Source: Chrysoperla carnea (lineage: Eukaryota; Arthropoda; Insecta; Neuroptera; Chrysopidae). From it: a DNA stretch of 64,000 bases. Below, piece after piece: positions 27,893-61,864 of this stretch. The notes under the pieces were generated by a model. It was not told where the DNA came from. It searched no databases and worked only from the letters and a program-made list of their open reading frames with translations. The first letter of the stretch is position 1. Each line of letters begins with the position of its first letter. The DNA lies in contig NC_058339.1 in the NCBI RefSeq assembly GCF_905475395.1, forward strand, positions 57,297,172-57,361,171, given 5' to 3'. The translations under genes and the position numbers were made by a program.

Positions 27893-29682
27893 ATGAAAAT
27901 TTCGGTACTTAAAAACTAAAATTATTACGTTTAATCAGTTAATTAATTTCGTTTTTATAATTTGTTTTCAGGTGTGCATTTTAGTTGTTTTGTTTTTTGT
28001 AATATCTCATGTTAATGTGGGCAAGTGTTTGGATCCTGAAATTAAGTGAGTGACTCTTACTTAGCTTGCTGAAAAATTTCCAACTTTAAATAATAGTTTG
28101 TTTTTGATAAATACGTTAATAATAAACAAGTGACGAAATTTAAGCATCAAAATAAACTAGGACAAAATAACTTAATTGCTTAAATTCCTTGAAATAACGA
28201 TATTGAAAGTCAAGGCCAAGTTTAAGGCCATTGTGAAATTTCCAAGAGTAATTTTTACTTGAGTAGTCTTTTTGCAATTTTTCTGCTGGATTTTTGAAAA
28301 TTGGATCACTGATATGCCTACTTATGATTCGTTTAGAGTAACTTTCTTCAAAACTAAAAATTAAATAAATTTATCGAGTAATCTTTATTATCATACAAAA
28401 AAACCATTCTTGAAATTTATTTTTTAAAAGCTTGAAGAAATTTTACTGTTTTCGAAAAAATTTTTGTTTTTTGATTAGACATTTCGGGCTATACGAATAT
28501 GTCAACAAACAACCTGAAGAGATTCAAGAGCTGCTATTACATCTAGACAAAACTACGGTTTGGTGATGATCTCCAGGGCATTTGATACCAACAAGACGGA
28601 GTTTCGGACAACATAAATAATTTTTAAAAATTTCAAGAATGGTTCTTTTGTATGACATTAAATATAATCCGATAGATAAATTCGTTTTTTATTTTTGAAA
28701 AAAGTACTTCTAAATGAATCACCCATTCATTGTACTAATAATATATGTAGGTAATTTTTATTTTAGAGTTTGAGTTGAAATAGTGACAAATAAGCTTACT
28801 AAGAAATATAAATGATAATGAAAAACTTGCAAATTCAGTGTTTACATTCTTTAATTGTTCAAGCATAATGAATTCGTCTTTTATCTGCCCTGTTTTGTCG
28901 GTTGGTAATTCTTTTGCTCTCGAATCGAACTTTCCTTTTACAACACCAAAAACGGATTGCCGCATCATTTCGCAATTTTTTTAGAATTGAGTTTTCTTAA
29001 AGAAGACGTGGTAATTTTCCATTTAGTTTTCGATTTATTTAAGATTAGGATCCGTCATGATATAATTCTACTATTCTATATAAATGAATCACATTTTATA
29101 GACCGTAAAATGAGTTAAAAAAAATTATTTAAGTTTCCAAATTGAAAGGAAATTTCCAAGTGACGCGTGGGTAACAATGAAAAAATAGTATTTCTTTTTC
29201 TTACTTGTACTTTTGCATACCTTATGTCGTTGCGAACCTAGAGATATGTAGGTACTCTTATTGCCAGAATAAGCCTTATAAACTTTTTGACTAAGCTCAG
29301 TTCTACCATAAAATTTCAATGCTCAGTTTTACAATAGAATCTTAGTGAACACTACAGGGCCTTGAAAACTGTTTTACTCTTTCTTTCATTCTGAAAAGTG
29401 GTAAAATGTGTCATATTACAGTCGATAAATTTTGGAGTAATGAATGAAAATAATTTTTCTAGAATTGGGCATATAATTCATACTGAAGCAGCACATGGTG
29501 ATGCTGGTGGAATTTGGAAGAAGAAAATTTTATGGAAAGCAAGATGGATACAAGAATGGAAAACAAAAACAATAACAATACCGTTTTGGAAAAAAGTATG
29601 GTCACCTGTTGAAATAAATGAATGGATACCAAAATTAAATTTACCACCTCCAACACCAAATGTTGATTTAAATGGTGCTTAG
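27893..29682 (+). CDS. Small secreted W/K-rich protein (3 exons, 101 aa)
   Basis: Reconstructed from three exons: 27893-27904, 27972-28045 and 29463-29682, with GT/AG junctions and matching phases (0, then 2). The first exon encodes only M-K-I-S. The second supplies the hydrophobic core of a clear signal peptide (VCILVVLFFVISHVNVG) and the motif GKCLDP. The third encodes the mature protein: His/Gly-rich HTEAAHGDAGG, then IWKKKILWKARWIQEWK, FWKKVWSP, NEWIPK and a proline-rich end. Tryptophans recur every 5-10 residues. The motif WKKKxLWK and the signal-peptide exon layout match the large gene at 46,294-61,864, so I infer a paralog. Function is unknown. A secreted, basic, aromatic-rich protein could be a cuticle, matrix or peritrophic component, but that is inference. 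Intron 2 is 1.4 kb. The 12-nt first exon is the least certain part. Confidence 0.78.
28830..28968 (-). other. Possible nested coding fragment in intron 2 of the small W-rich gene
   Basis: A minus-strand frame starts MMRQSVFGVVKGKFDSRAKE and continues L-P-T-D-K-T-G-Q-I-K-D-E-F before turning low-complexity. The first 45 or so residues look like real protein. I could not name a family or find a joining exon. It could be an exon of an unseen nested gene, a degraded copy, or chance. Confidence 0.25.
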
Positions 29683-30692: not shown

Positions 30693-31425
30693 TTACCAAC
30701 CCAAATGCTTATTTAAAACTTCTCTAATGTATTGAACATCAATACCACTTTCAACAGCATCATTAACAATTTTTTTAAAATTTGCATTACATCGTACAGC
30801 TCGCACGATAATCAAAAATTTCTCACTTTGTAAATATTCCACCAACTTTTGAAATGGTTCACTTGTTTGTAATTTTTCATCATATAAATTCTGGAATGCA
30901 TTCATATCAATTAAGTTTTTAGCGGTTTCAATGAAACCTTTTAGTCCAGGTGTCTCACATGATGGTAGACAATTTTTTTTATGACTACAATCAATTAAAT
31001 TTTCTTTAACATTTGGAGGTATTATTGTATTTATTACGTCTTGAATCGTATTCATGTCAAAATCGTCCATGTCTTTTAAACCGTTATCTTGAAGAAATTT
31101 CATGAACTGCAAATAATATGGGACAAGAAAATTATTATAAAGTTAACATAAGTAACATTTTTTTCAAGTCGATTTTTTTCGAAATTTTCAAGAAACTTCA
31201 TGAGCTGCAAATAATACGTACACACTTAAATTCAAAACTAAGTCTTTAAGTTTATGACAAAAATAATGTTTTAGGTCAATTTATAATATTTTTCATGATA
31301 CCTATACCCAAATAAGGGAGTCAGTGATGAGTAAAGGACCTTCAAGTATACAGCCCCAAAGGACAGGAAATTACACTGCTCTTGAGAGAAAATTACAATA
31401 GTCTTGCAAGCATTGTATTGCAAGC

Positions 31426-31456
<31 letters not shown>

Positions 31457-32350: not shown

Positions 32351-32399
32351 AAATTATTAATAATAAATTAAAAATTTATCAAAATCCCCAACATAATCA

Positions 32400-32560
32400 G
32401 GTTTGATCGATTCATTTGTGACATTATAGCTCCTAAACGGATGAACCGATTTTGATTTTTGGTTTGTTTGAAATGTAATTTGATCGACCTCTTTTCTAGC
32501 TGTTTCGGGCACGGAACTCTAAACTAGCTCTTGGAACATAGCTAAGATCACTATCGATTA
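32400..32560 (+). mobile_element. Short transposon relic upstream of G12-like copy B
   Basis: The text TAGCTCCTAAACGGATGAAC then CGATTTTGATTTTTGG followed by a TTTGATCGACC block is typical of dispersed insect elements. It is short and non-coding. It lies about 50-200 bases upstream of the copy B start codon, where a promoter would be expected. Confidence 0.45.
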
Positions 32561-34080: not shown

Positions 34081-34089
34081 ACGATATTT

Positions 34090-34345
34090 AACAAAACTCC
34101 GACGCAACTGTGCAAAAATTCTGTGGACCATCACCGGAATTCTGTGAGAGCATCGACCGGAATTGCCGGAATTTTGTGAGAACCTCGGCAATAATTTACA
34201 GAAACCCTATGGAACACCAGCAAGCTCCAAAATCCCACGAGGACATCGGCAACACTCCGCAAATACTCCGGGTGAATAGCAGCAATACTCCATTGATGCT
34301 AAATGATAACATCGGAAACCCCGACATAACACCGTAGGAATCTCG
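34090..34345 (+). repeat. Degenerate minisatellite-like, GC-richer segment
   Basis: Repeated phrases such as CCGGAATTCTGTGAGAGCATC, CCGGAATTTTGTGAGAACCTC, ACATCGGCAACACTCCGCAA and AGCAGCAATACTCC recur imperfectly every 30-40 bases. The 75-codon plus frame over it is repeat-derived and has no family. Confidence 0.45.
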
Positions 34346-34551
34346 TGTTACAATTGAATATAAAACTCAGCGTTCCCTTAAACCTTAAAACTTCACCTAT
34401 ACATCGTGAAAACTCTACAAGGAGTGTAGTCAGTGTTTTGACAGGGTCATCGAAACCGTTAGGATATATTTATAAATAATAGCGACAAAATTTTAACGTT
34501 TTAATACATTATAATTATATTAACAAGTTCATAACAATTCCATTCAGAATA

Positions 34552-36519
34552 TTACCATCCAAATAGTTTATGTAAAATTTCTGTGATACGATTAACATCA
34601 ATACCAACTGCAATCGCACTTTGAACAATCTTTTGATAGTTTTGATCATTTCGTACAGTACGTACAATAACAAGCATTTTCTCACTTTTTAAATATTCCA
34701 CTAACTTTTGAAATGGCTCACTTGTCTCTAATTTTTGATTATATAAATTCAAGAGCGCTTCGACGTCAATTAACTTTAGAGCATTTTCAAGGAAACCATT
34801 TAATCCTGGTTTGTCAATCGATGGTGGGGCCTCACGTTTAATTTTGTTGCATTTTTTGTTGGTTTTTGGTAAATGCTCTTGGATAAATGGTGGTAGTGGA
34901 ATATTTAATACCTCATGAAGTAAAGCAACGTGAGCATATATTTCATCAACACCGTTGACGTACAGATAATCCACAAACTGAAAGGAATATTTATATTATT
35001 TATCTGGATAATAAAACTTGTTAGATAGGTGGTTTACAGTATAACTAATATTAACGTATCTGCCAGTCAACCCTAGTAGCTCAGTTGGTTAAGGCGCAAC
35101 CAATTCCGTTTGCGTTATGCCTAGGGTAGCTGTTACAACAAAAATTATTTTAATTAATAGTTGTGATGGGCTGATGTAGTGCATGGGATATCCATGAAGG
35201 AGGTGCACTCAGCCTCTCAAAGTAATTGAGGAGCTGATAAATAAAATTAGGTGGTAAAATGATAAATAAAAAAGGTGGTAAAACACATATATGGTATCAC
35301 AATGGGCACTCTATAGTCTAAGTGTGTCCTTTGTGTACAGCCAAAATAACCTAACCTAACCTATGGTGTCTGCGAAAATATTAATTTTTGGGATAATTGG
35401 CCTATCCTATGTTAAGTGGACCATTGCCATGTTTCTAACATTAACTAAATTATTGAAATTAGTTTAGGTGTTCGGCACCCAATAATGGAACAGCAAAAAT
35501 TCAAATATTGTATACATACAAGTCCATATTTTCAGAATATCCATGAAAAAGGCTTTTTCAACTATCAACTATCTTATATCTCGTGGACTTCTCTATTTGT
35601 GAGCAAAGAGAAGGCAAAAGCTAAGAAGCAAGATGACTTTATGCGACTTGAAATTAACACTGTATTAAAGTTAAACGAAACACAAATATGGGAATCATTC
35701 ACAATTATCTTGTTAACGCTGCAAACAGGCGAACACTAAATAACAACAGGAATAGACAACTACCAAACAGTGTATAAAATCACGTGTCATCAAATCCATT
35801 CATTATGCTATGTTATATACCCATTTGATATTTCCCTATTATCCTGGTTATTTAGTGCTCAAATTCGTCAAAAGGAAAGCTTGAAGCTCAATCTAAAGTT
35901 TTTGGGGACACGTCAAAGAAAAATATGATGTATTATATGAAAAGCTTCGCAAGTAAAACATGTTTCAGGTTCGCCAAATCGAGGTCACAAACGACGTTTC
36001 AACTGAATTGATAATGTGAATTAATGAAACGATGATAAGCTGTGCATAATAACAGCAGACAAAAGTATTGTTTCTGATTGATCTACACAATTGTTCTTAA
36101 TTTGTTTAATATATTGTGAATGCAGCCAATTTACAAATATTTTGCTATTTACTTACATTTAAACTAAATAAAAATTTAATAAATAATTTTTTGAAACTAT
36201 AAAGAATTAAATTAATAAAATATAAAAAATATATATATACCTGCTCAAATTCTGGTATTCCATCGATAATTTTAATCAATTGTTTCATTTCTTCGCCATA
36301 GAAAATTTGTATATCTTTTCTAAATTGCTCGTCAACAGCAAAATATTTACCAAACAATTCGATTAATTCATCACTTTTTGCCAATAAAATATTTTTAAAA
36401 TCTTGAATGTCATCATTTAATGTTCCTGCCTTTGCTTGTTTCACGTTCATTCCATTTATACCATAAATCGAATATAGATTTATTATACTTAGTAAGAATA
36501 ATGTTGTAAATAATTTCAT
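34552..36519 (-). CDS. Insect-allergen-repeat / protein G12-like, copy A (2 exons, 234 aa)
   Basis: Paralog of copy B with the same length and the same intron position. Exons, minus strand: 36241-36519 and 34552-34977, phase 0 junction after IPEFEQ. Signal peptide MKLFTTLFLLSIINLYSIYG is clear, so a secreted, probably gut-lumen or microvillar protein is inferred from family habit. Domain landmarks are TLNDDIQDFKNILLAKSDEL, FAVDEQFRKDI, and SEPFQKLVEYLKSEKMLVIV followed by RTVR, ending LHKLFGW. It has one internal repeat unit only, whereas Bla g 1 has several. The basic stretch KTNKKCNKIKREAP between the helical halves could be a processing site. The 1.26-kb intron carries a SINE. Confidence 0.92.
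35071..35364 (+). mobile_element. tRNA-derived SINE in the intron of G12-like copy A
   Basis: The start CCCTAGTAGCTCAGTTGGTT then AAGGCGC matches a tRNA 5' half with a good A box (TAGCTCAGTTGG). No standard B box (GGTTCGANTCC) is present, so it is not a functional tRNA gene. The body has GGATATCCATGAAGGAGGTG and CACTCAGCCTCTC. The 3' end is the repeat AACCTAACCTAACCTA. It lies opposite in orientation to the host gene. Confidence 0.75.
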
Positions 36520-36616
36520 TGTTAATCAATATCTTTTTCTAAAGTGATTAAAAAAATTATAACCAATGACTTTTTTTGTTAGTAGGTATATTAATTAAAA
36601 GTCACTTTGAATGCCT

Positions 36617-42139: not shown

Positions 42140-44274
42140 TTATTATTATTTATTTATTTGACTCTAAAACTTATCAATTTACAGCTTTTAATTTAATTAT
42201 ACATTATATTTATAAAAAAAAAATAAACAAATTGTTACTCTAACTTCCCCTTCCTTACGCTTAATATTTTTTTAATAACTCTAGCCATATCTTTTTGCTT
42301 AAGTTCCTCTTTATAGTCCATCATTTCAATTATATTTTTACCACTTTCCAAATTAACCCTTAACTCACTCAATCCTTCACAAAATAACATCAAATGCTCC
42401 TCACTTTCACTTTCACTGCATATTGCACATATTTTATTTCCTTCTACATCCTTTGCACTGTCATAATTCCAAACTCCAAGTCTAAATCTTGCAAATTCCC
42501 TTCTTTCACTAAGCTCCAAATTATTAATATAGTGTGCTCCATCTTTATAGTGGTTTATTCTGGCGAAAAATTGCAATGATTTTTTTACTCTAATATCCGT
42601 AAACATTTTTCCGTAGGCATCATTCTCAATTTTTTCCTCTACTATTTTCATAGTTTTTTGTAGCATAGTTTCTTCATATTCTTCACTTATTTTTATGCCT
42701 AATTCCTCTAACTTTATGTCCATTTTGTCTCCCCAGCTTTTATGCTCACCGTACTGACTATTCGCTACACACGCCCTTTGGATAACTTTTTGTGGGTTAG
42801 ACTTTAACTTTAAGTAGTATTTTATTTCATTTTTTAATATTTCGCACTCTAATGGTAATTTTCCCAATTCAATCAAAACAGCATTATTTACAGTAGCCGC
42901 GCTCACACCTAATATTTCTTTAAATATTTTGTTCCTAGCTTTTTCTAACTTCATTATCCCATTTTTATTGCCCCATATCTGGCATCCATAAGTTAGAATC
43001 GGCTTTATTAGAACCTCAACTATGCGTATTAAGGTGCTGGCTGACATCCATTGGTTACTATACATAAACCTCCTTATGATAAAAAGCCCTCTTTCTGCTT
43101 TCTTTACTGCTTCCTTAAAGTGCATGTCCCATTTTCCATTCCAGTTGAAATGTAGCCCTAGATATTTGAAATTATCGACTGTCTCAATTCTCCTACCATT
43201 GTATGTCCATTTTTCTGCTTGCTTCAGTTTATGCCCGTTCCTGAATACCATTATTTTTGTCTTATTTTCATTTACCACGATTTTATTTTTTTCACTATAT
43301 CTGTGCAACTGATCTATAGCTCTTTGCATACCGATTGCCGTTTGTGATATTATTACCATATCATCTGCGTACATTAACACATTAATTTCGTTGTTCAACA
43401 TCCAAGGTGCATGTGTATCCACCTCCTTTATGTTGTCCGGTAGGTCATTAATAAACAAGGAGAACAATGTAGCAGACATCTGGCATCCCTGCCTTAATCC
43501 CCTAGATGTCATTCCTCGTTCTGTTAAATTATTATCATTGATTTTTATACAAAAATCATAGCTCTGGTAGATAGCTTTTAATAGCTTTATCATTTCTGAC
43601 GACACATTCAATTTCATTAATTTATCCCATAGAAGCTCTCTGTCAATAGAATCAAAAGCCTTTTCCATGTCAACAAAACAGCAGTACAATTTCTTCCTTT
43701 TCCTTCCCAACGTCCTTTCCACTAATTCATTTAAAATTAATAAATTGTCCAGAGTACCATAATTCTTTCTAAATCCTGCTTGTAATGGGGATATAATTTT
43801 CTCCTTTAACGCCCACTTTTGCAGTCTGTCTGCAATTATTTTTAAGAAAACTTTGCTTATAATAGGTAATAATGTTATGCCCCTATAGTTTGTAAAATTT
43901 GCCTTATCTCCTTTATTTTTGTATATATTACAGATAATGCCGGTTTTCCAATCCTGCGGTATTTGTTTGGTTTCTTTTATTATATTAAACATTTCTGTGA
44001 GAATTTCTACTATATTGCCGTCCTTTCCGGCAGCAAATTTTATAAATTCCGCTGGTATCCCATCAATACCAACTGCCTTTCCATTTTTTAAGTTATCTAT
44101 GGCATCATTTACTTCTTCCCAAGTTATTTCTCTATCTAGTATTTCATAACAATTCTCGTTTATGTCTTGATTAATTTCATGCTCCTTTTCCATTTGGTTT
44201 TGTTCACGTCTTTTTCTATATAACTTTTCGTAGTATTCTAGCCATTGCTTTCCCTGGATATTCACTAGTTTTTT
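42140..44274 (-). mobile_element. 5'-truncated non-LTR (LINE) retrotransposon, 2135 bp
   Basis: On the minus strand the element begins within ORF2, upstream of the reverse transcriptase, and ends after a short 3' UTR in an AAATAAATAATAATAATAAT tail. It is bounded by a perfect 14-bp target-site duplication, TATAAAATCTATTA, at 42,126-42,139 and 44,275-44,288. The truncated start with intact 3' end, simple-repeat tail and variable-length duplication are the signature of target-primed reverse transcription. The endonuclease part and ORF1 are absent, so the copy cannot move by itself. The open frame and perfect duplication show recent insertion. Confidence 0.93.
42235..44265 (-). CDS. LINE ORF2 fragment: reverse transcriptase and C-terminal zinc motif
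   Basis: About 676 codons without a stop or frameshift, encoding the C-terminal two thirds of a LINE ORF2. Reverse transcriptase motifs in order: LKNGKAVGIDGIPAEF (near residue 60), NYRGITLLPIISKVF, QAGFRKNYGT, the catalytic FVDMEKAFDSI (motif A), RGLRQGCQMSATLFSLFIND (motif B), and the catalytic MYADDM (motif C), then FKYLGLHF. The thumb region is followed by a C-x2-C-x7-H-x4-C motif (CAICSESESEEHLMLFC) near the end. No RNase H domain is seen after it. The N-terminal AP endonuclease is missing through 5' truncation, so the apparent start is not a real start codon. Clade is not certain. The TAA-type tail and zinc motif are compatible with the I/Jockey side of the LINE tree. Confidence 0.95.
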   Translation of the reverse strand: MNIQGKQWLEYYEKLYRKRREQNQMEKEHEINQDINENCYEILDREITWEEVNDAIDNLKNGKAVGIDGIPAEFIKFAAGKDGNIVEILTEMFNIIKETKQIPQDWKTGIICNIYKNKGDKANFTNYRGITLLPIISKVFLKIIADRLQKWALKEKIISPLQAGFRKNYGTLDNLLILNELVERTLGRKRKKLYCCFVDMEKAFDSIDRELLWDKLMKLNVSSEMIKLLKAIYQSYDFCIKINDNNLTERGMTSRGLRQGCQMSATLFSLFINDLPDNIKEVDTHAPWMLNNEINVLMYADDMVIISQTAIGMQRAIDQLHRYSEKNKIVVNENKTKIMVFRNGHKLKQAEKWTYNGRRIETVDNFKYLGLHFNWNGKWDMHFKEAVKKAERGLFIIRRFMYSNQWMSASTLIRIVEVLIKPILTYGCQIWGNKNGIMKLEKARNKIFKEILGVSAATVNNAVLIELGKLPLECEILKNEIKYYLKLKSNPQKVIQRACVANSQYGEHKSWGDKMDIKLEELGIKISEEYEETMLQKTMKIVEEKIENDAYGKMFTDIRVKKSLQFFARINHYKDGAHYINNLELSERREFARFRLGVWNYDSAKDVEGNKICAICSESESEEHLMLFCEGLSELRVNLESGKNIIEMMDYKEELKQKDMARVIKKILSVRKGKLE

Positions 44275-44288
44275 TATAAAATCTATTA
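44275..44288 (+). repeat. Target-site duplication, right copy
   Basis: TATAAAATCTATTA abuts the truncated 5' end of the LINE. It is identical to the left copy. Confidence 0.88.
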
Positions 44289-44299
44289 CTTTATTTTGA

Positions 44300-45170
44300 A
44301 AACCGTAACTTCAATCAAGGTTTATAAATTTGTTTGGTTAAAATTATCTTGAATGATTATTATCAAAATTTTTGAATTACACGAATTTTCGAAAGGTAGC
44401 TACTACCAGTTAAGAAATTTAGCAAGAAATTTAGCAAAATTTGGCCACTGAATTCGACCAGATTCATTTAAAAAGGTGATTTAAACCGAAGTAAAACAAA
44501 AAGAATTTATATGATTTTTTGGTTAACCCTAAAAAATTGATTATTATCAAAATTGGAGAAAAACATTATTTTTCTATCTACTCAAATTTTGAAAGGGCCC
44601 TTAAGAAAATTCGAAAAAATCGATAAAATTGTTATTCACAACTGATTTATGTAACAAAATTATTATATCGTATTTTAGAAAATTAAAAATGCCAACGATG
44701 GCAATTCTTATATTAAAACAAATACAATTTGTTTTTGTTAATAAATTTAGAAACGTACAATTAAATATTTTTTCGGTGGGAAAACCAGATGGCTAGTTTT
44801 GGCCAGATGTATTTGAAGTGCCGTTACCTCTTAAATTAAGGCAGAAAAAATTAATAAATAAATATGTATATTAAATACTCTAAATAATAATAATTTACAT
44901 ATTAATTAATTTTAAAAAGTTTTGATAAAAATATGATCTTGATATTTGAATAAATACTTCAATTAAATAAACATATTTATTTACCTACCTTCTTGATTAG
45001 AGAAAGTCTTATTTAAATTAATTGTAGGATGTTATTAAAAAGATTAAATATTCTAGTTTGGAAAATTAATTGAATAACAAGCATGTGAATGCGGCCCTTA
45101 TGGTTCACATCATCAACTTTTCAGAGAATAAATAAACACGCGTCCTGGAATATAAGAAGTTCTAGGATCA
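44300..45170. other. Intergenic, no gene seen
   Basis: AT-rich, no supportable gene. Confidence 0.4.
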
Positions 45171-46293: not shown

Positions 46294-49200
46294 TTATGCT
46301 GGGAAACTCCAACTGGATGTTTGTTGATTTGTTTGTGGTGGTGGGATTAAGGATTGTTGTAGGTTTGAAACTTGTGGGGGTGTTAAAGCTTGTGATACGG
46401 CTACAGTGGCTTGTACACCTTCTTGACTATTACGTTTATATAATCTATTTGTATCTAATTGCTGACTCGCTACAACATCGACCTGAGTATTGGTAACTTG
46501 ATCTTTTCGATCCCATCCATGGTCACTATGGTGGTGATCGTGATGATCAGGTGAAGGGAACCATTCAGATATCCATACTGGTTTCCATATTTTCTTCCAT
46601 GCTGGTACCCAAATTTCTTTCCAATCAGGTACCCATATTTGTTTCCAGGCTTCTTTCCATTCTAATTTTTTATCTGCTACCCAAATTTGTTTTTTAGCTG
46701 GTTTCCAAATTTGTTTCCATTCTTCTTTCCATTCTAATTTCTTGTCAGATACCCAAATTTGTTTTTTCGCTGGTTTCCAAATTTGTTTCCATGCTTCTTT
46801 CCATTCTAATTTTTTGTCGGCTACCCAAATTTGTTTCTTTTCGGTTCTCCATATTTGTTTCCATGCTTCTTTCCATTCTAATTTTTTGTCTGATACCCAG
46901 ATTTGTTTCTTGGCTGGTTTCCAATATTTCTTCCATACTGGTTTCCAAATTAATTTCTTTTTCCATAAATCGTGTGATGTGTATTCCCATCCATGAGCAT
47001 CTTTACCATGATAATGTTCACCTGGAATTCCTACTTTCACCCATTCTGGCACCCATAATTGTTTCCAAGCTGGTACTTGAATTTCTTTCCATGCAGGTAC
47101 TTGAATTTCCTTCCAAACTGGTTTGTATATCTTTTTCCAGTCTGGTACTTGAATTTCTTTCCATGCTGGTACTTGTATCTCTTTCCATACTGGTTTGTAA
47201 ATCTTTTTCCAATCTGGTACTTGAATTTCCTTCCAGGCTGGCACTTTGATTTCCTTCCAGATTGGTTTGTATACTTTTTTCCAAGCAGGTACTTGGATAT
47301 CTTTCCATGCTGGTACTTGAATTTCTTTCCATACTGGTTTATAGTATTTCTTCCAATCTGGTTTCCATATTTGTTTCTTTGCTGGCTTCCAGATCTTCTT
47401 CCATCCAGGTTTCCAGATAAGTTTCTTTTTCCAGTATCCTGGGTCATGGTGTTCGTGATGATGATGATCGTCTACAACATGTTCTTCATGATGTGCTGGT
47501 GTATAATCATATCCAACTCGGCTTTGCGCAGCAGGCCTAAACATAAATGAAAATATTTTAAGTTGGAGTCTCTGCATCTACAAAATGAAACTTTATTGAC
47601 TTTTTTCAGAAAAATATTTGATTTCCGAAATTCTAAAAAATTGTATAAATCAACGATATTCATTGTTTTTTAAAGATATATCCCCGCTTTTCATTATGAA
47701 AAGTCTTTTTACCAAGGATAGAATTTCAGAAACTGTAGGAGGGCTACTCTTCCAGAAAGGTCAGAAAATTTCACAGTACAGCTTTCACTTTTCTTCTGTC
47801 TCTATTAACGCTAAAGTGAAACGAAGTTTAAACTCAGCTCGTTATGTTGATAAAACATTTACGTCGAGGCCGAAAATAAAACAGAGCGTATATTAAATAA
47901 AATTATGAAGAAGATAACGAAAACATATATCGTTAAATATCAATGATTTATGCAATATTTTGCTCAAACTATAATTGTTTAAAAAATAATATAATATGTT
48001 GTTACCTTTTTTGCTCAAAATTAATTATATGCGTCAAATATGTCTGACTCATAAAGATAGTCTTACCTTATGGCTTAAGCACAGTTTTGTCATATTTCAA
48101 TATTGTCATACAGTTTCGAAGTCTATATATATTAAAAAATTTTGCTACAACAGTCAAATAATATTGTAGTAGAGGTCACTAAAAAATATGTGTATTAAAG
48201 TCAATATGTCTTATTATTAATTAATATTTGTTTTATAAACGTCGTGTAATGTAACACGTTTGCATGAAAATAATCTTTTCTATTTCTCTTTCTCGAATAA
48301 CAATTGTCTTATGTCAATTTTCTAAAATGCCCATTATGATACTTCTATCGATTTTCCGTCTTAAAAGAATGTGTGATAAGTAATAGTTTTTTAGCCCCTC
48401 TTAATTTAGAGATGGTTGTTATAATTTTAAAATCCGTTATTTCCAATAATTATTTAACAATTATGTACCATTGTATGAGACAATAACGTTATTTTGTAAG
48501 AGAAACATGAAAATTTATTATCCAGCTAACGTGTGACTAAACACTTCCTTAAATTCGTTTGAATAATTACCAACGTTTGGTGTGGTTTTGGTTTATGTAT
48601 GTAGTAGGATAAGCTATGCAAAAAAAAAGCTGAAAATAATCAATTTTATTTGATCAGTAACTTACTGTTGACTCTGTTGAATTGATAGTTGAGTATTTGG
48701 ATCTAACGCTTTACCAATAACTAAACTTGCGTAGATGATTACGCCGAGGGCAATCTGAAACAAGAAAAAAAAATTTAGTTGAGTTTTCTTATAAACGCTG
48801 GACTTTATATAATTAACAAACACATATAATTAACCTTTTGTTTTGATATAAAAGATAAATTCAAAAAGAAACAAACTAATATGAAATGCAAGTCAAGTGA
48901 TTCTACATAACTATCCGACTCAAAGCTTTGAAGTCTAATTCTAAAGAAAAAGCTTTTAAAATAAATAAAAATTGTATGTATGCAATTTTTATGTTATGTC
49001 ATAACTCACATATTGGGTACAGTAGCAAATCAGATGTATGTACAATTAATTCATACAAAACTAAAAGCAGCTATTAAATTAATTAAAACATTTTTTAATT
49101 GACTTCTAAAATTAATACCTTAAATTTTCAGAAATAATTTTTTGTAAAGTTAGCGCTACATTTATAATGTACCAAGGCACGAAAGGAATATAGTTCCCCA

Positions 49201-52200
49201 TCGGGTATGCCACAACACCTCTCGATTTTTTTTAAATTTTTAAAATTTTATAATTTTCTAACTGAAATTATTAACGTGGATATAAAAACTATTATGAACA
49301 ATCAACAAGCAACAACACACAGTGTTTTCAAGCGGTTTTCTACCCAAGTTCTAACTGTGTTCAATGTTGCTTAACTTCGATGTTCATGTTTTCAACGGAG
49401 TGTGTATGCCACGTGGTTTTCATGGCGTTTTTTCACATGGCGCAGTTTTCACTTCTTAAATCATATTGATATCTTGTACCGTTTTGTTTTTATTTCAAGT
49501 GAAAAATGTATAAATCTAATCTGAAAATCTTTTAAATGAAATAAAACCACCTACGAACGATACTTAAATAAATTCAATAAACAATATACAGTTAATAGAT
49601 CTCAAACAAACAATTCACAATTTTTTTTCATTTACACAAGTAATAAATTATTGTAACATGTCAATCTGTACATACTAATGAGTTATAATAACAACATACA
49701 TACACTTTATATTAATTCATTTCATATCATATATGTTTCATTTTTTACTTTAGTAGTTTATATTTTATGAGTGAAAGTAATTGTATGATGATATACATTG
49801 GACAAACTGAACATCATCGCATCGAAAAGAAAAAAAAAGCTGGTTTGACGCACTCACATTGTCTCTGTGTACAGAAATACCTATATAAAATTTTTAAGTA
49901 TTAATTTGTAGTTATGTGCTTTGATATGCATATTATTTTTAACACGCTTATATTATATATTCACTCATAGGACATGATCAGTTATATACATTTATTATTC
50001 TACCGATAACCATACTATGTATACATACTTAGAACAAGCAACAAGCGTGTTTTTTAGTTTTTTAAACTATATTCTTATTATTTTTAATTTAAAGTAGTTG
50101 TAAATTCTTTAATATGGTGTAAAATGAGCGATGATATTTCCTAAATTTTCATTGATAAACTTAACCGGCGGTCATTGATATATGCTTAATGAAATGCTTA
50201 AAACGAGATATACCTTAAAAAAGGACCAAAGTGGATTTGTTAAAAACGGATTTTGGAATTTGGATTTGATCATATAAGCACGATATATATATTGATTCAG
50301 TTATCTAAAAGGATGGGAAATACTTTGTTTATTTCTTGGATTTGGCAAAATGTATTCCTATCTAGATACCTTGGCGACGAGAAATGTGGTCAAGAATATA
50401 ATGAATTCAATAACACGGATAGTGACTATGAATTTCAAATAAAACAATTGGCATAAGAATCAAGATTAGCCCAAGCTACCAGCAGTGGGAGAAAATGATG
50501 TATGCAAAACAATGGGACTGTTGAAATTTTGCTGTCTGGTATTTGTACTCCTCTGCATTCAAATTGAATGGAAATTTTAAACGGCTATCTTTGGATTTGT
50601 TTTTGAAAAATAAGAAGAGTGTTACTTTTTTGTAGATATCTTAAATTAGTTTGAGGAATTTTTAACGACATTCGACTAAAAGTAAGAAAAATTCCACTTA
50701 GGAATTTATCGCGTAAAACTGTAACAGAAAGGAAGTATTTGTCTTTCACGAGTAAAGAAATTATATTTTAAGCATTAGAAGACATTAAAATGAGAAGAAA
50801 TCAATGCTACCATTTCACATACACGATTTTGGTCTGTACATGGAAGTAGGTGAGATCAAAGAAAATTATGGAAACAATAGATTTATTTTTGAACCAGTAG
50901 TAGATAAATAATATTATAATTTTTACATAGATTCATAGATCATTGTGAGATTATTCATGCTGTGATGTTAATGAAAGTTAAAAAACAATTGATAATAATA
51001 ATTTAGAATTATTGTAATGTATCACTAACATGCATGCATGTTTGTATAATTTCAATCATAAACACCTACTAATAAAAACATTTTTTTAAATATTATTGAA
51101 CTTCATATATACATAGCTTGAACTCTACTGTTCATCAGTTTTATAAAAGTTGCTTTCTTTTTCCAATAATTTCGTTTCAATACAGATTTATTATGAAAAA
51201 GAAAGAAATATAGCAAACAACAGAGTTAATTTGCGAGATTAATTAGTGTTTGAATTTTGTTTTTAAGGATGTACGAGCGACAGAGCATTTTTTGATAAAA
51301 GACTTGATTTTGACTTCAAAAGTAGTTATATTTAACATTGGTTTTATGGGAAAACGGTAGATGGATGGTGTGTTTTGTTAATTAAAGTTAAGTCCTTGAT
51401 AAATTATTGAAAAAGAAAAACCCGTTGGATCCGACTAAATAAGGGTGTATGAGCACGGTAGTGGGGACACAAATTTAAAAAAATATATATTTTCAATTTT
51501 GATGGTGAATTATGTTATAACTTGACAATATACGGTGAAAAGTTTTTAAAATCTGGAGTAATTTTCAAATTATCGAAAATTGAACATTTGGTTTAATTAT
51601 TTAGCTTTCAATATTTCGAAAATCAAGGCAGATATCGAAAAATTTTATTCTTTTTTCGTCTGCATTCATGAGGTTATAACAAAAGTTATCATCAAAGTTG
51701 AAAATAAGGTACAAATAATTTCAACCACAAGCATAAAATTGCTCTGGCACTAATACTACTTTAATTTGATATTGTTGATGAATAGAAAATTTATGAGCAC
51801 CCATACAGTAGCACAGTAAAAGTGTATTATGTAAGACTAGCCTCACATTCTATATATTGAGCTCCTGAGAAGTAGGTATAATGAAATAGTGATATTGTTG
51901 GAAAAAGTATGGAAGAAAATTAAAAAGATTTAATTTTTATTGAAAATCCGTGAATATAATTGACGTAGGCATGGTTATCCTGTGTGTCGAGCAGTTTCAA
52001 AAACTTTTGTTGCTATATGAACCAATAACAGCTACCGAAATACCAGAGGGATAATTATTATTTCAAATTGATAAAATCTTAATTGAAACTTAGTTTTTTT
52101 TAAACTCTTTTTTATAAATTCCTTACGTAAAGATTTATTGTGAGAATAAATTGAAACGAAAGTAACATTCCACATTCAAAAAATTGTGCTTCCGATTTAA

Positions 52201-55200
52201 AAAAAAGATTTCAAAACTAATAGCAGGTAGGGCATTTGCTAAAAATTTACATATTTATTATTGAACTGGTTTTTATAGCTCTTGTTTTGTATAAATTTAT
52301 CATTATGTGTGCCGGAAATAAATATAATAGATATTATACAAAAGACGGAAGTATTTTGATTCATCCTACTAAAAAAAATATTTTTCCAATATATATGTAT
52401 GTACAGGTTTGTTCAACAAGATATGTACAAAAAGTCTCCCACTTACATGGTAACATCCTATTGAACAATCCTGCATTTAATAATTATTTAGATGACTTTC
52501 TTTAATATATATTTAATTTCAAAAAATAGAAATTTATAAAATAGTCAATTTATATACAATAGGTATTCAAAGAAAATAAAGCTATTATTATTGACAATAT
52601 TTTTTTATTACCAGAATGATGTAACTTGAATTTAAATTACCTTCTTTGGTATGGAATTAGGTAAAAATTTTATTTTTGTCCTATAAATTATTTATTAATA
52701 AATAAAAATGAAATTTAATTATTATATTATTATAATTTGTTAATTTTGTGGTTTTAAGATATTTTTGTATATGCAAAAGTGTTAAATGAATAATTTTAAT
52801 TTATTAATTTTTGCTAATTTTACTGTTTTATTGTTCAGTTAAATTTGGAAAATAGTGATGGCCATGTTGACCAGATCAATTATAATAAAACAGCAAAATT
52901 TACAAAATTAGATTTTAAATTATTTTTAATGTACTTTACTGTACAATATAAATTGGAATTTCCCTAAAGATTACGTGCATCATGGAAAATGTGTAGACGA
53001 TATAGAAATACGGCTTTTTAGAACATTTCAGTATTAATATGATATTAGTAAGTTGATGGTTGATATCCCAAGTCGGTTAGAACCACCAATTTGTGTTCAG
53101 TATATTCCCTAAGAACGAATCTTTTCTTTAACCTACAATAGAAGCGTACGCAAGAGGAGTTTTGGAAGTTCAACCCTGCCCTCCTTGAAATGTGAAAAAA
53201 TCGAGATGTTTAGTCTTTCCAGTAAAAGTATTTAAAAGGCAAAAAGATCTACACATAGAATGTATTTTTTGGAATTCAATACGAAAGAAAGTAGGGAAGT
53301 ATAAGACCGAAAATTATCTTGCTGAAAATGACAACGTTTAAGTTTTATCGTTGCTTAGTAAAATTTCTGAGATTAACATTGATGGCCTAATTAATGATTT
53401 CTAGTAACACAAGAGTTAATAATATACAATGCATATAATTTGAGATCTAACGCAATTTTATAATTTTGTGAGCTTCTATTCAATTTCCATGTCATTAATG
53501 TAATATGAGTTGCATACGTTATATGAAAATGAAATGAAAATTAATATCCAACGTGTGAAAATTATGTACAAATTTAGAAGTTAAAATCATAGAAATCGGT
53601 TACCAGTTTAAATAACTGTTATAAATTTAAAAAACAAAATCGGATATAATGATGACACATATTAAAAAATTTAGAATTATTTTAATGAAAACCGTGAATA
53701 TTTACATAATTAATTATTTTCTTACAGAAGCATAAAAAAAAATAATATCATAAAACTTTAACACGAACATGAATAATTGTAATATTGGAAAAGATTTCAC
53801 GCTCATTTAAATTTTAAATTAATGATTATATGTTATCTGTTGTATAATAGTTTTAAATTAATTATTTAAGTTTATAATCACATAAAGACACTAATTGTTA
53901 AATCTAATAATCATTTGTTACTTAATTGAATTATTATGCGAATTAAGAGAAATTTTTTATTTTCTTTAACATAAATTTTATGTAAATTGTTATATGTTCT
54001 ATAATATTATAATATTATAATATGATTAATGAACAAATATTGAATTCCTAATATTTCTAAGGTTTATTTGTTCTAGAGAAAAATTTGTAAAATGTAAAAC
54101 AACAAATGTTATTTTGTAAGGCAGTTTATATCATATGTCAGATTAATCTCATTTTCATTAAACATACCTAAGAACCATTCCGATTTAATGAATCTTTAAA
54201 TATAGTAAATATTTGGGAGCAGGCAGACCCACAAGAACAAGAGAAGCGGAAGTTTAAAATATCCCTGAATTTTTTTTTCAAATAAATTGAGAATTTACAG
54301 TTGCTTACTGGAAACATCCATATAAATGACACATAATGTGATAAACATTTGAAAATTTGAAAAAATCTCTGAAAATTAAATATCTCTTTTTTCAATAATC
54401 ATTAAATATATTATATTTCCTAACAGCGCCATGAAACATCATCTTATTTTATACATTATTGGGACAAAAATTTTTGATTAGTATAAAGTTGGGAGAGCGT
54501 GGCAAAACATTTCATTAATATTAGATTCTGAAAGCCCCGATATTTTATTTTACAAAATATCTGCGATTTCTTTGTCGTAGGTACAAACTATTTTTAATGG
54601 CTATGACTTAATTCAAAATATATTTACATCTTAACCCAACAGTTGGATTTTTTTTATACCATAGTCAAACTTTAAAGCTTTTATACATTACAGGTTTAGA
54701 GAAAAGTTGAATGTAGTGCTTAAGAAACATTTAAGTTGCATGTAGGTCAGTGCTTAAGAAACATTTTAACTGTTACTGCTAAATATTTTTACTATAATAA
54801 CAGCTCAATTTTTCAGTAATAGAACTCATAACAAGTGAAATTTATTTGGAGGGAGAGAGCTAATGATTTGAATATGAAAGATGATTTGATAATTTTTCTC
54901 ACATAAATTTTGATAGAAACAACAAAAAATTAATAAACTGCTAAAAATTGTTGGCATTTATTAATTAGTTACATAAATTGTTTTGTTGACAGATAAAAAT
55001 TAACGTTTTAAAAAAATTTATGGAGAAAGTTTGTAAATGCGGAATCAAGATCGATAACATTCAAAAGATAAAGAAAATGAATCTTATTTAAAAAGAGAAG
55101 AAGAAATATTTCTAAATTATTTGTTATATATTACTGTTTCGTGTTTTAAAATAAAAATAGAATGCAAAACAGACAATGATCTATTGTAGGTTTATTTTAA

Positions 55201-58200
55201 TTTTTATCTAGAAAGTAAAAATTTATCAAGTTATAAACAGTTTTTCAAAAGGAGTACAATATAGTCTTGACGACTAAAAATTATGTACCTATTTCATTGG
55301 GTTTCCGAAAACCAGTTTCTAACCAAAATTGTATTGATAAACCGATCGGATGTGCAAGATGAGTGCAAGATATACACGGTGATAAGTGCAAGATATATAG
55401 ATAAGTAATAAGTGCAAGATGTATACGGACATATTTCCCCCAAATCAAGTAAAAATGGTTTTAGTAACACTCAAAATAAATATTTTTGTTGAAATCTAAA
55501 AACCAAATTATTCCCTATATAAAAGAGAAACCGCCCGTTGTCCCGTGTATGGGAGAGTTGGCTATACCGTACCGTTATTTAAATCGGACCATTTTCCAAA
55601 TTTCACACTATTTAAGTTAGCTACTATTTAAGTATCGATAAAATAGATAACATTAGTTAAACCTCTTAATTTAAGTCAAATTAAAGAAATTAAATCCTGC
55701 ATGTAAGTTGGGTGTAGATTTATGGAAAAATTTGATTTTGATGTAGGTTGTTGAATTATTAAAAATATATTAATTGTGAATATATTTTGCAAGTAAAATA
55801 TTGTAAATTCATTTTGTTAAGCAAAATCAAATGTACTTTTGTTAAATAGTAAAATATATCAAAGTTTCAAAGAAATCACTTGTGAGGGTTTTAATTGTAT
55901 CGAATCTAGGGAAAATCGTTACAATACGATATAGCCTACTTGAACTAAGTAATAAGGGAAAACTGTTTGTGATGCGATGCTTATAACAAGATATAGACAT
56001 AAGTTTATCTTTTAAACTTATAAATTGCTTAATTGCATTATTTAGTGTAAATATTTTTTATGCTAATTAAATTTGATTTACGATGTACAATGATAGTATA
56101 AAAATACCACGATATATATGTATATAGAATAATTCTTTTGTTGTTAAATGATATTTATTATAATTATAAATTATTGCAGTTAACAACAGAATTAATCATA
56201 TGATACATTTGAAAATAACATGTTATTAACATGTATATAATACCTATTATAAATATAATTATGTTATTATATTATTTTATATCATATATTCATTCAATAC
56301 AGTGAACTGATATAATAGATAATTGACTTCAAAGTTTGACACCTAACAAGATTTGTTATTTTAATTACATTTCTTTTAATTCTAATTTTATACAGATGAT
56401 TTCAAAAATTTTAAATCTAACATCCACGTTTCTTTCGAAGAAAGCGTTTTTCGAAAAAGACATTTATGGGACAAAATTATCCGTAGAATTGAGAAAAGAG
56501 AGCGGATATATTCAGTAAAATCATAAAACTTTAGAAAAGTGAAAAATCATAAAATTTATGCAGCACTTTCATTTCTCAGTCCATTAAATCAAGTAAAAAC
56601 ATTAAATGTTAAATAATGACATTTTCATACAAAAGATTTTTCACATAATTTTGCAATAAATTTTTTTTATATTATTGTATGAGTGATTATAGGAAGTACT
56701 TTCATTATTTGTCGGTCTAGTTTTCAAAATGCCATAAAGTTTTATGTTAAAATGGAAAAAATCAAGCGTTATAAATAAGACCCCCACACCGTCGCTAAGC
56801 AAGCCGTATTTCACAAAAACTTCAATACACCTCATTAGATTTTAGACATTTATGTGGTACACAATCGATTATGATTTTATTAAAAAAATTCTTAAATACT
56901 TTTGAATTTTTGTTTCCAAGGAGTCAAATTTGTATTATTATTTTTTCTAAATATTAGTCAAAAAACTTTAAAAATCAAAAAAGCTACGTTGAAAACCTCA
57001 ATAGCAATGAAATGAATTCTATTCTATTTAGGTTAAATTTTGGTTATTGTAGGAATGAATATCTTGATAAATATTGGTGGGAACGCAGATAAATGTATTG
57101 TACACATCTATATGTCAGAAAACTTTACGTTCCCAATGCCTCTACCAAAAATAAATGAAATATTATCGAATTTACTTTTGTGATACTAAAGTTCTCAAAC
57201 AAACATTTAAATTGGTGAAAAATTGAATTTGTATTTTTCGCATATGGTTTAAATGTTCTTTCCACAAATATAATTTTTTAAGCAATCACGTACGCCTTTG
57301 TTTCATTTCGTTTTTACAATGTATAAAAAGTTTTTGGTAGCCAATATTTCTATTATTGAAACACTTTAAAGAAACTATATCAAAATCGGTGGATAAAGGA
57401 TTTGCATAGAAATCCTCCAAATTAAAAGCGAAATAAAGGATAATATTACATAGATATTTTAAGCTTTACAGTAAAAATAGATCTTGAGGCTTCCCTGTCG
57501 GATGGACTCCATTCATCTCTTGCTTATGCCTAACATTGTATGGACATTATCTTATATACCACTGATAAAGGATATAAAAATGCCTTTTATACCGATCAAG
57601 AGAACAGGGGCAAAGAAACATTTGAAATCAACTAAATTTAATAAACTGTGTTATACCATATAAATAATATAATTGATATACGGTCAAACATCGTTAATAG
57701 GATAAATATAATAAAATTATTAGAAATTCACTCATATAATAATAAAATAATCTAAACTAACATCTAAGTTAAATGGGATTAAAACATCATAATTGCATTT
57801 ATTGTAATTTATATAAATACTAATCTTAATATATTGTATGAAATTTCAATAATAATTATATAGAAATTATTTTTAATTTCTCTTCATAATAAAACAGATT
57901 ATTTAATTTTTTTAATATATCACTGTAATGTTCTATTGAAATAAATATATCTCTATTATTGAAGTGTTATTATTATTTAAAATGAAAAACTAACCATATA
58001 TAAACACTTTCTTTCATTTATTAAAAATTATTCTATTTTGTAACGAACTAATCACACAAAAATTTGAAGAAATCGTTTTATTGTGCGGTAAGTATGGAAA
58101 TTTGATTCTTTTTAATTTGAAAAGAACTGTTTAACAAATGCTTTATGAGATTAATTTTATTAATGATTGATTAAATGCTGAAAAATGTGATTAATACTCT

Positions 58201-61200
58201 ACAATATAATTAATTATTTTAGACTTTCGTATTAAAAAGTGCTGCCAAGTTAGATTCCTAAATCTTTTGCATTTGAGATATTTTTTGGTCGTATGGAGGA
58301 CACGACCAATATCATACTATTTTTTACAACATATACATTATCGGGATTTTTTGCTATCAATAACAGAGCACCCTGTATTTCGAGGAAGGAATTAATAAAA
58401 TTACGCTTTTATTATTTATGTAAAAAAATTGAAATAAGCGAGATTTGTAAAAAACTCAACATAAATTAATAGTTCATGTTAGAAGACAGAAAATTAAAAT
58501 AGATTTATGTAAAGTTGATATTTACTGTGAAAATTTGAAGATAATCAATTGAACTATTTTATTATTCCACGCGCTTCCACGTTTATATTATTTATTTATA
58601 CTCATAAAAATTGGAAAAAGATTGTAAGCTTTGACTGATAACTGATTAGATTTTCATTAAATCTAACTAATAATTACTCCAATTAAAATAGATTTCTAAC
58701 AAAAAACCAAACGAAAATAGTCCATCAGTTTGTGAACGAGCGATAAGAAGTTGCTAGAATGAACTACTTGATATAAACTACACATTACTTACAGAGAAAT
58801 AGAGAATTGTTAAAATCATTTATATTTGGGGAATTGATTATATAATTACAAATTTTGATCACGATAAGTAATTAATTTCTATTCTGACGAATTTTGAATT
58901 TTTGAATTAAATTCATAAAAACATTTTTTGTGCAAACATGTATTATGTGCTAAAAATAAAAATGCGTTACGACAATTGAACCAAGAAACGATTAATTTAA
59001 TTTAAATACGAGAAAGATAGATAGAAAAGAACAGTATATTGTTTGTTTGCACCAGTCTGTGAATACTGACTTCATTGAATTGGATAGGATGTAGTCATCA
59101 CAGTAAACAATTCAATTTTAATTAATATGTATATTGACAGTATTGTCTATTATAATTAATTGAAAGTGCAATTAATATGCGTGCAAGAGTAAGTAAGGTA
59201 GTAAAATTAATTATACTGTGAAATACTACTTAATAAGCAATTGAATTTTAAAAAAATGATACAGAACTTTAAAATAATGTAGTTTTTATTTATATAAGTG
59301 ACATCAAACTCTCATTATTAATATTTTTATAACAAAGAAAGCAATATGAATCATATAAATTAATAAATATGCAATTTTTATTGATATCTAGAAGTAATTA
59401 TTTTATCTAAAAGTGTGATTGTTTTTTATCAATCATTTATTAATAAGTCTAGTACATCTAGCGGTATTTAATTGCTCTAAATACATTGTTTTGTGTGCAG
59501 GAATGTAAAGACAACAGATGTATGTATGTATTCAAGATAAATTTGTAGTCGCAGGGGAAAGTTTTCCCATTTAATATTTTTTTTACATTTTCACATTCAA
59601 GATTTTTCTTGAATAAGTATCAAGAGTTTACCGGATGAAAAATTGTTCCAAAATATTCGAATCAATTTCTTTCCCAGCAGTATTGCGGCAAGTTAGTAAT
59701 CGCCGGGGAAAGTTTTTCATTAGCTTTTTTTCTTGCAAATGGAAAATTTTCTCGTTAAAATTCACGTTTAAGAGATGTCTCTGAATAAGACCCGAATTAT
59801 TAACAGTTCGAAATTTTAAAAAAAGCTGCTGAAAATAGCATTAAAAAAAGAGATTGCAAAATTCAAAGAGTAATAATCTTATGAATTTTCCAGAAAGAAT
59901 AAGACCAAAACATAGATTTTTAGTATTACAATAAGTATTTTTTTAAAATTTTTATTGTAAAATGTGCTGACATATATGAACAGTACGTATAAAAAAGGAG
60001 TATATCATTCTTACATAATATTTTAAGTTAAAGTGAATTTATTTTGAAATGATATCGTTTTTCGGATTTTCTCACTCTTACTGAGATTCTTAAGCTAAGG
60101 AGATTTTTGAATCGAATCTTATCTTTATAGATATTAGGGATTTCTCAATACATTGGAAATTTTGTCTAGTTTTTAAATACTCAAAGAAATGCGGTTATAA
60201 CTATCAGTATAGACGCTTGCACACATTATTAATAGATTTATAATGTATTCCACCATTCCGCTTATTCTAATTATTTCTAATATATAATGTAATAAACTTG
60301 GAATTTTTTCCGCTACAATTTTATACGAAAATCTGAGGTAATTGCTATTTATTCGAAAAGTTTTTGTGTAAGAGGCAATGATAAATATGAAATTAAATAT
60401 ATGACAAAATGAAATATCATATTTTTTTAATTTTTAGTTAGTTGTAACTGCAGCCAGGGACAGTATACCAGTTAAGACAGTTATTACTTACAAATTTACA
60501 GAGATAGATATAGAGGCTGATTTTTAAGATTGTAAAATATCAAGGTCGCAAGCGAGTACATCGGAATACTAAAAATTCTAGTAAAACTAACGGAAGTATC
60601 CATTTAAACCATAAATACGTTCATTATTATACATCCATCAAATTTTTATCAGAGCCTCCACCAATTTTTCAGTTTGGATTACGGTATATTGCTACAAATT
60701 CTTTTAGGCTTACAAAACTTAGACGAATGTTTATACAGTATGCCTTTCTTTCCAAGAAGAGAAGCTTTCAAAGAGTTCAATCGATTTTAACGCTCTAGTA
60801 AAGTACAGGAAAGAAGAAAACTTTGCTAGTATATAAGCACATACTAAGCTTCCCTAAATATTTCGGTGGAGACAAAGGAATGCAAATTATATACTAATCT
60901 AAAATAGAAGCTCTGAGTCGTTGAAAATTATTTAAACGAAGGTATAAATATTCTTAAGATAAAAATTAGCCTATATAATTATTCTTGAATAAAAAAATTT
61001 CGCTGATCTTTTGCAACGTTTTAAAACTGTAAAAAGAATTTATTTCTAGTCTAAGCTACATTTATTTTCATTCGATGTTTTAGATATAGTTGCAAATGAA
61101 GGTAAGATTCCAAAGTAATTTATATTGTTGACTTTTTGCAATAAGTCAAAAATTTGTGTGAACATAGTTCTAAAGTAGTGCGACACTCGGGAGCCTTCCC

Positions 61201-61864
61201 TTTTTAAGTTCTGAGTCCGACAAATTTTCCTAATTCTTGGCCTAACAGATTAGAATTGAATTGAATTTTTTTTAGACAGAATTAGAAAATCGACTCTCCG
61301 GTGTGCGATTGATCTTTGCTCGATACTAATAAAAGAAGCGATCAAAATTGACATTATCGGGGAATCGATTATCATCTTGTTCGAATCTGAATGCTTTGGT
61401 CCTACTCATCAATTGTAAGATTCCGAGATAGTTAAAAGACAGGGTCTCTCAAAATCAGAATATGTTCACACAAATTATTGACTTGCAGAGCCCAAGAAAT
61501 GTACGCTATCTTTATACATAATAGGTAAATCCTTTATGTATTTCCCAAAACCAATACCGGGATTGCATAAAGTGCATTGCAATTTTATTTTTTGTGGTTT
61601 AATTTCTCACATTTAAAATTCAATTAAATATTTTGATTTGAACACTTAAGAAAAAAAATCACTTAATTAAAAAAAAAAACCAATTGTAGTAAAAAATAAT
61701 CCAAAAAACTATTTTAATTAGAGCCCATTAAACCACTTTCAAAAATTGCAATACACAAAAGCACAATTTTTTTTCAAAATAACACTTAATTAAATTTCTA
61801 GAAAATAATTAAAATATAATTAAAAATAATTTACACTAACCACTGGAGTCCAGCTGCCACTCAT
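46294..61864 (-). CDS. Large secreted W/K-rich repeat protein (3 exons, 451 aa)
   Basis: Exons, minus strand: 61841-61864, 48666-48754 and 46294-47536, with GT/AG junctions and matching phases (0, then 2); total 1356 nt. Exon 1 encodes M-S-G-S-W-T-P-V. Exon 2 continues IALGVIIYASLVIG, completing a signal peptide of about 22 residues, followed by GKALDP. Exon 3 opens with a His-rich segment (HHEEHVVDDHHHHEHHD), then WKKKLIWKPGWKKIWKP. Block 1 is about four copies of a 24-residue unit made of three 8-residue steps (WKEIQVPA, WKEIQVPD, WKKIYKPV). A spacer holds GEHYHGKDAHGWEY. A second WKKKLIWK opens block 2, four copies of a different 24-residue unit (QIWVSDKKLEWKEAWK core). A second His cluster (HHDHHHSDHGWD) and a Gln-rich tail follow. 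I do not recognise a named family. A structural extracellular or cuticle-associated role is inferred from composition. The far-away first exon is the least certain part. Confidence 0.85.
46600..46980 (-). repeat. Block 2 coding tandem repeat, 72-bp unit, about 4 copies
   Basis: Each copy encodes a 24-residue unit with the KKLEWKEAWKQIW core. At DNA level the units are very similar (CAAATTTGTTTCCATGCTTC then TTTCCATTCTAATTTTTTGTC), more alike than block 1 units. This suggests recent homogenisation or expansion. Confidence 0.9.
47045..47370 (-). repeat. Block 1 coding tandem repeat, 72-bp unit, about 4 copies
   Basis: Each copy encodes three 8-residue steps with Trp at the second position of each step. 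Proline closes each step, giving a strict W-x6-P rhythm. A 24-bp sub-repeat (GGTACTTGAATTTCTTTCCA) is visible on the plus strand. Confidence 0.9.
47537..48665 (-). other. Intron 2 of the large W-rich gene
   Basis: No gene is supported inside. A 92-codon plus-strand frame at 47,618-47,896 has no family and no partner exon. Confidence 0.45.
54715..54775 (+). repeat. Short direct duplication
   Basis: AGTGCTTAAGAAACATTTAA at 54,715 recurs as AGTGCTTAAGAAACATTTTA at 54,748. Confidence 0.7.
55345..55425 (+). repeat. Short tandem repeat around GTGCAAGAT
   Basis: The word GTGCAAGAT occurs four times within about 75 bases (GATGTGCAAGATGAGTGCAA, AAGTGCAAGATATATAG, AAGTGCAAGATGTATACGG). Confidence 0.7.
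55525..55610 (+). mobile_element. Fragment related to the 12.6-kb transposon relic
   Basis: CGCCCGTTGTCCCGTGTATG resembles GGACGTTGTCCCGTAAAAAC at 12,608. It is followed by AAATCGGACCATTTTCC. It is short and degenerate. Confidence 0.4.
59541..59800 (+). repeat. Degenerate tandem duplication, ~150-bp period
   Basis: TTGTAGTCGCAGGGGAAAGTTTT at 59,543 recurs as TTAGTAATCGCCGGGGAAAGTTTTT at 59,691. Later matching blocks are TTTTCACATTCAAGATTTTTCTTGAATAAG and AATTCACGTTTAAGAGATGTCTCTGAATAAG. The copies are old and diverged. Confidence 0.6.
61137..61487. mobile_element. Inverted-repeat element (~350 bp) just inside intron 1
   Basis: The left end TGCAATAAGTCAAAAATTTG then TGTGAACATA is the inverted match of the right end TATGTTCACACAAATTATTG then ACTTGCA. 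Inner blocks also pair weakly (GGGAGCCTTCCCTTTTTAAG with TAGTTAAAAGACAGGGTCTC). It is a non-coding MITE-like element about 350 bases downstream of exon 1 of the large W-rich gene. Confidence 0.7.

Follow-up and report, generated by a model that had tools for sequence, protein, structure and literature searches.

Two genes of the DUF4816 family with tryptophan- and lysine-rich octad modules in a genomic window of Chrysoperla carnea

Introduction

Described proteins with which those analyzed here can be compared include the cuticular and chitin-binding proteins of insects and the cornifin/SPRR proteins of vertebrates. The chitin-binding domain of CPAP proteins and peritrophins contains six cysteines, and the SPRR repeat is a proline octad with Lys and Gln. 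According to a review, AAP(A/V) motifs are carried by some of the hypothetical cuticular proteins (CPH), and CPLCW proteins, reported there only in mosquitoes, have an invariant Trp in their conserved domain (PMC12426002). TcCP30 of Tribolium is reported to be a low-complexity cuticular protein that is cross-linked by quinones with His as the likely site, and it consists of 36% Glu, 21% His and 19% Arg, with a pI of 5.8 (PMC4440208).

We analyzed a 64,000-nucleotide stretch of the C. carnea genome, hereafter the window, and found in it one long and one short gene of the Pfam family DUF4816 (PF16086). For the joined protein of the long gene, the Pfam listing up to E 10 gives two matches; neither the R&R chitin-binding domain of CPR proteins, nor a Cys-rich chitin-binding domain of CPAP proteins and peritrophins, nor the Tweedle domain is among them, and the protein has no Cys. 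It shares proline octads with Lys and Gln with the cornifin/SPRR family, but its octads are Trp-rich. AAP(A/V) motifs, a feature of only some CPH members, number zero. By description, CPLCW proteins resemble the long protein in being of low complexity, and they are named for their tryptophan (PMC12426002). TcCP30 resembles the long protein in its low complexity, in containing His, in lacking an R&R motif and in carrying a signal peptide, which is predicted for the long protein; it differs in being Glu/His/Arg-rich with an acidic pI, whereas the long protein has a pI of 9.7 with 16% Lys and 11% Trp (PMC4440208).

Results

Exon structure of the long gene

The initial annotation had proposed three exons on the reverse strand, 61864-61841, 48754-48666 and 47536-46294. 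As had been claimed, these join in frame to a product of 451 aa, which ends at a stop codon. Each intron has GT at its start and AG at its end.

61841..61864, reverse strand: candidate exon 1, encodes MSGSWTPV, phase-0 donor GTTAGT
48666..48754, reverse strand: exon 2, signal-peptide core IALGVIIYASLVIGKA followed by LDPNTQ, phase-2 donor GTAAGT
46294..47536, reverse strand: exon 3, arrays 1 and 2 with the His-containing linker between them and a His-rich flank on either side, then the C-terminal tail and stop

Exons 2 and 3 are open frames with matching splice phases, and exon 3 contributes 413 whole codons before the stop, inside a longer open frame of 427. They are well supported as the main exons of a real gene. 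Exon 1 ranks third of 128 among the phase-0 ATG-to-GT candidates from exon 2 to the end of the window, scored with a home-made approximate donor matrix. Its ATG is the only one among 11 short-listed candidates (two of which share it) with both TATATAA (61943-61937) and TCAGTT (61904-61899) within 120 upstream bases. The two elements are separated by 39 bases, which is wider than the usual spacing of about 30 bases. In the predicted N-terminus, the hydrophobic core is not preceded by any basic residue, unlike MKIS in the short gene described below. The in-frame join of exon 1 stands, but this exon, 13 kb upstream, is weak and no more than a candidate, and the true first exon could lie elsewhere, inside or beyond the window.

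A short sister gene

A second gene, absent from the initial annotation, is located at 27893-29682 on the forward strand and encodes a product of 101 aa.

27893..27904, forward strand: proposed exon 1, MKIS, phase-0 donor GTACTT, read by eye
27972..28045, forward strand: exon 2, signal core and GKCLDPEI, phase-2 donor GTGAGT
29463..29682, forward strand: exon 3, HIIHTEAAHGD, then WKKKILWK through SPVEINEWIP, stop

Its third exon encodes HIIHTEAAHGDAGGIWKKKILWK...SPVEINEWIP, a His-containing N-terminal flank and one minimal module. The intron phases are 0 and 2 in both genes. In both, exon 2 has GK(A/C)LDP after the signal core, and a six-frame search of the window for G-(K/R)-x-LDP returned these two sites and no others. 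An (I/L)PPP stretch close to the C-terminus was also seen by eye in both proteins. Judged by eye, both probably carry a signal peptide, and the small-residue rule for signal-peptide cleavage makes GKA or GKC the likely end of it; the signal peptide claimed for the long protein agrees with a signal-peptide-like core recognized there by eye.

Membership in the DUF4816 family

The exon 3 frame of the long gene, queried with 14 residues read upstream of the acceptor, matches DUF4816 in 10 stretches with E 5e-79, and the joined protein matches with E 9.5e-79 and 259.5 bits, above the curated cut-off of 29.4 bits. The array 1 part alone (47059-47436) gives E 7.2e-37 and 125.5 bits, and the array 2 part alone (46588-46947) E 1.9e-37 and 127.4 bits. 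The model has 43 positions; the long gene differs from it in matching 10 times across its two arrays, each of 17 octads. No match to DUF4816 was obtained with four shuffled arrays (two of the three made per array, six in total), with both reversed arrays, or with three antisense open reading frames of the repeat. Reversed array 2 did match TFIIB (E 5.9e-4, 20.3 bits, under the cut-off of 23.6), so compositional matches do arise with such repeats.

The joined sister protein matches DUF4816 as well, and its third exon alone does so with E 2.6e-10 and 40.5 bits against the same cut-off. In pairwise searches the sister does not outscore a frame antisense to the repeat, either in phmmer (1.5e-5 against 2.9e-6) or in BLASTP run without composition correction (1.3e-9 against 3.4e-10), and the kinship of the two genes therefore rests on Pfam and on their shared gene structure. 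Pfam separates the two cases: the antisense frame has no DUF4816 match and the sister has one. The sister gene suggests what a minimal DUF4816 module looks like.

The Pfam match rules out an orphan repeat. The label "uncharacterised" in the initial annotation holds for function, as no paper naming DUF4816 or PF16086 was found in the open-access literature searched, but not for family. From its sequence, we take the long gene to be a further member of a catalogued but functionally undescribed family. NCBIfam gave no match for the repeat protein. A comparison with solved structures returned 11 entries up to E 1, the best at 0.003 (6sgo_A, "Secreted protein") and the rest at least 0.056 with unrelated names, and these were taken as compositional. 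The repeat pattern matched 8 stretches in a collection of viral contigs and 108 in a collection of prokaryotic genome contigs, none of them confirmed; the nature of both collections makes these results little informative.

Two arrays of one octad

The third exon of the long gene contains two arrays, which are preceded, separated and followed by His-containing stretches.

47434..47505, reverse strand: His/acidic stretch 1, residues 49-72, 9 His
47020..47433, reverse strand: array 1, residues 73-210, 17 octads past the first two residues
46966..47019, reverse strand: His-containing linker separating the arrays; the stretch at residues 209-230 has 4 His
46552..46965, reverse strand: array 2, residues 229-366, 17 octads past the first two residues
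46474..46551, reverse strand: His/acidic stretch 3, residues 367-392, 6 His

These three stretches replace the two His/Asp clusters of the initial annotation.

Tandem Repeats Finder reports two arrays of 72-bp period, at 47062-47362 and 46602-46947, in agreement with the 24-residue periodicity claimed for both. Residue identity at lag 24 is 0.72 in array 1 and 0.69 in array 2, far above chance: in 2000 shuffles of each array the highest identity over lags 1-32 was 0.33 and 0.24, respectively. The aromatic periodicity that had been noticed stands. Within each array, all Trp but one share a single class modulo 4 (19 of 20 in array 1, 25 of 26 in array 2). The hydrophobic moment peaks at 90 and 135 degrees in array 1 and at 45 and 90 degrees in array 2, but these peaks are harmonics of the 8-residue period and hence uninformative.

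The motif WKKKLIWK was correctly placed at the start of each array (residues 73 and 229), and the shared opening is longer than these eight residues, covering 23 positions with 21 identities. The two arrays had been read as built of different 24-residue units, the first made of W-x6-P octads. Each unit in fact consists of one octad repeated three times, the register is shared by the two arrays, both match DUF4816, and the spacing is W-x5-P, as in WKEIQVP. Counted from the shared head, the octad of both arrays has the form (W/K)-K-x-I-x-(K/V)-P-x. Array 1 has P at position 7 in all 17 octads and W at position 1 in 15; array 2 has W at position 5 in all 17, Lys at position 2 in 16 and P at position 7 in 8.

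An octad period with Pro, Lys and Gln could also point to a transglutaminase-type barrier protein resembling vertebrate cornifin/SPRR, whose proline octads would offer Lys and Gln for isopeptide cross-links. Array 1 does match Cornifin (PF02389) weakly, with E 0.003. The Cornifin scores, however, range from 15 to 18.2 bits, under the curated cut-off of 34.8, and Pro/Lys/Gln periodicity by itself may explain them. Moreover, Gln has no single conserved place: array 1 carries it at position 5 in 7 of its 17 octads, array 2 at position 3 in 8 of 17. We regard a barrier protein of this type as improbable.

An ungapped alignment of the arrays over 138 residues has 72 identities. The shared heads and equal length suggest that the whole module may have been duplicated in the long gene. 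Such a duplication is suggested rather than proved, because displacing the alignment by one or three octads hardly lowers the score: shifts of -3 and +3 give 41 and 43 identities among 96 core residues, against 44 for the unshifted alignment.

The dN/dS ratio between 24-residue units is 0.048 in array 1 (four units) and 0.084 in array 2 (four of the five pattern matches; the first was excluded as part of array 1). The repeat is under purifying selection and is kept at the protein level, beyond mere DNA repetition. Synonymous divergence between units is high (pS 0.63 in array 1 and 0.50 in array 2), so the units are not fresh copies.

A long periodic open frame runs antisense to array 1 (47059-47550, forward strand) and has no Pfam match up to E 1. 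The most plausible reading is that it results from the repeat itself.

Composition of the long protein

The computed pI bears out the basic character claimed for the long protein. Its net charge at pH 7 is about +30 with the first 24 residues left out, His accounts for 4.2% of residues, and 35 of the 50 Trp are followed by Lys. Such a charge and so many Trp-Lys pairs recall Trp/Lys antimicrobial peptides, and among the repeat 6-to-8-mers searched in the literature the repeat-like 7-mer WKKIWKP was found only with an antimicrobial peptide. A cationic antimicrobial or otherwise membrane-active secreted protein is nevertheless very improbable in our judgment: long octad arrays in fixed register, many octads with acidic residues, and the low dN/dS better suit a structural repeat.

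Proposed role and assembly

A structural or matrix role of the long protein, as had been suggested, is still the best reading of its sequence. It is drawn from the Lys that follows most Trp, from the basic chain without Cys and from the His stretches flanking the arrays. On balance, and with modest confidence, we lean towards the view that both genes encode DUF4816 proteins that are secreted and serve a structural role in an extracellular layer of the insect, most likely the cuticle.

Both genes would follow one plan, in which exon 1 is short, exon 2 supplies the signal peptide and GK(A/C)LDP, and exon 3 encodes almost the entire mature protein. That protein would begin with a His-containing flank, and one Trp/Lys module or two would come after it. 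A module may be described as a head WKKK(I/L)(L/I)WK, several octads, and a tail, which is PV-x-I-x-E-W-x-P in two modules out of three. The long protein apparently underwent duplication of the module, and each array would have been expanded by 24-residue steps. We propose that Trp beside Lys could hold chains together by cation-pi and stacking contacts, that Trp could stack onto chitin, and that His and Lys may perhaps be cross-linked by quinones at tanning. The cross-linking proposal has a precedent in TcCP30, a low-complexity and His-rich insect protein (PMC4440208). Set against a cuticular role are the difference in His content between the long protein (4.2%) and TcCP30 (21%) and the absence of R&R, chitin-binding and Tweedle domains from the Pfam matches listed for the long protein.

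We further speculate, with considerable doubt, that DUF4816 could be a distinct extracellular assembly class, in which an octad-set Trp/Lys lattice provides cation-pi cohesion and chitin stacking and the number of octads tunes the material. If so, the two genes of the window would form a natural series of lengths, with a one-module protein of 101 aa and a two-module protein of 451 aa and 34 octads. A Trp/Lys lattice that self-assembles would represent a novel type of structural repeat in insects. The presence of a short and a long gene with common exon structure in one window hints at the minimal unit and its growth, and the two proteins are direct subjects for questions of assembly and chitin binding.

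Genomic neighborhood

Several other coding features were found in the window.

30693-31142, 34552-34995 and 36145-36525, reverse strand: exons of the insect-allergen-repeat family (PF06757), between the two DUF4816 genes
42235-44310, reverse strand: reverse-transcriptase open reading frame of 691 residues (PF00078, E 2.1e-37), between the two DUF4816 genes
14912-15205 and 20036-20437, reverse strand: exons with Pfam EXS matches
23973-24668, reverse strand: TPX2-like exon, just under the Pfam cut-offs (24.9 against 25, and 24 against 29.5)

The insect-allergen-repeat family is midgut-expressed, and the position of its exons (30693-36525), flanked by the two DUF4816 genes, bears on another candidate role. 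The same secreted Trp/Lys/His scaffold could be made by midgut cells as a protein of the gut lining or peritrophic matrix, with the His clusters binding haem or metals, and the His-containing stretches on either side of the arrays would fit such a function. Neighboring genes, however, need not share expression, no peritrophin domain is among the Pfam matches listed, and the long protein lacks Cys. We consider a gut-lining protein unlikely, and for a secreted structural protein we would place the cuticle first and the peritrophic or gut lining second.

The PF06757 exon at 36145-36525 is barely over the cut-off (23.4 against 23.2 bits), and the frame 32048-32353 resembles this family by eye, with no Pfam match up to E 1. 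The reverse-transcriptase frame apparently belongs to a non-LTR retrotransposon. The EXS-family gene at 14912-20437 is presumably XPR1-like; next to its exons, the open frame 20609-21121 has no Pfam match up to E 1. No Rfam family reached its gathering score in the window. A GC-rich 35-bp tandem repeat with 2.4 copies and 97% matches is located at 23007-23090, within the otherwise AT-rich window.
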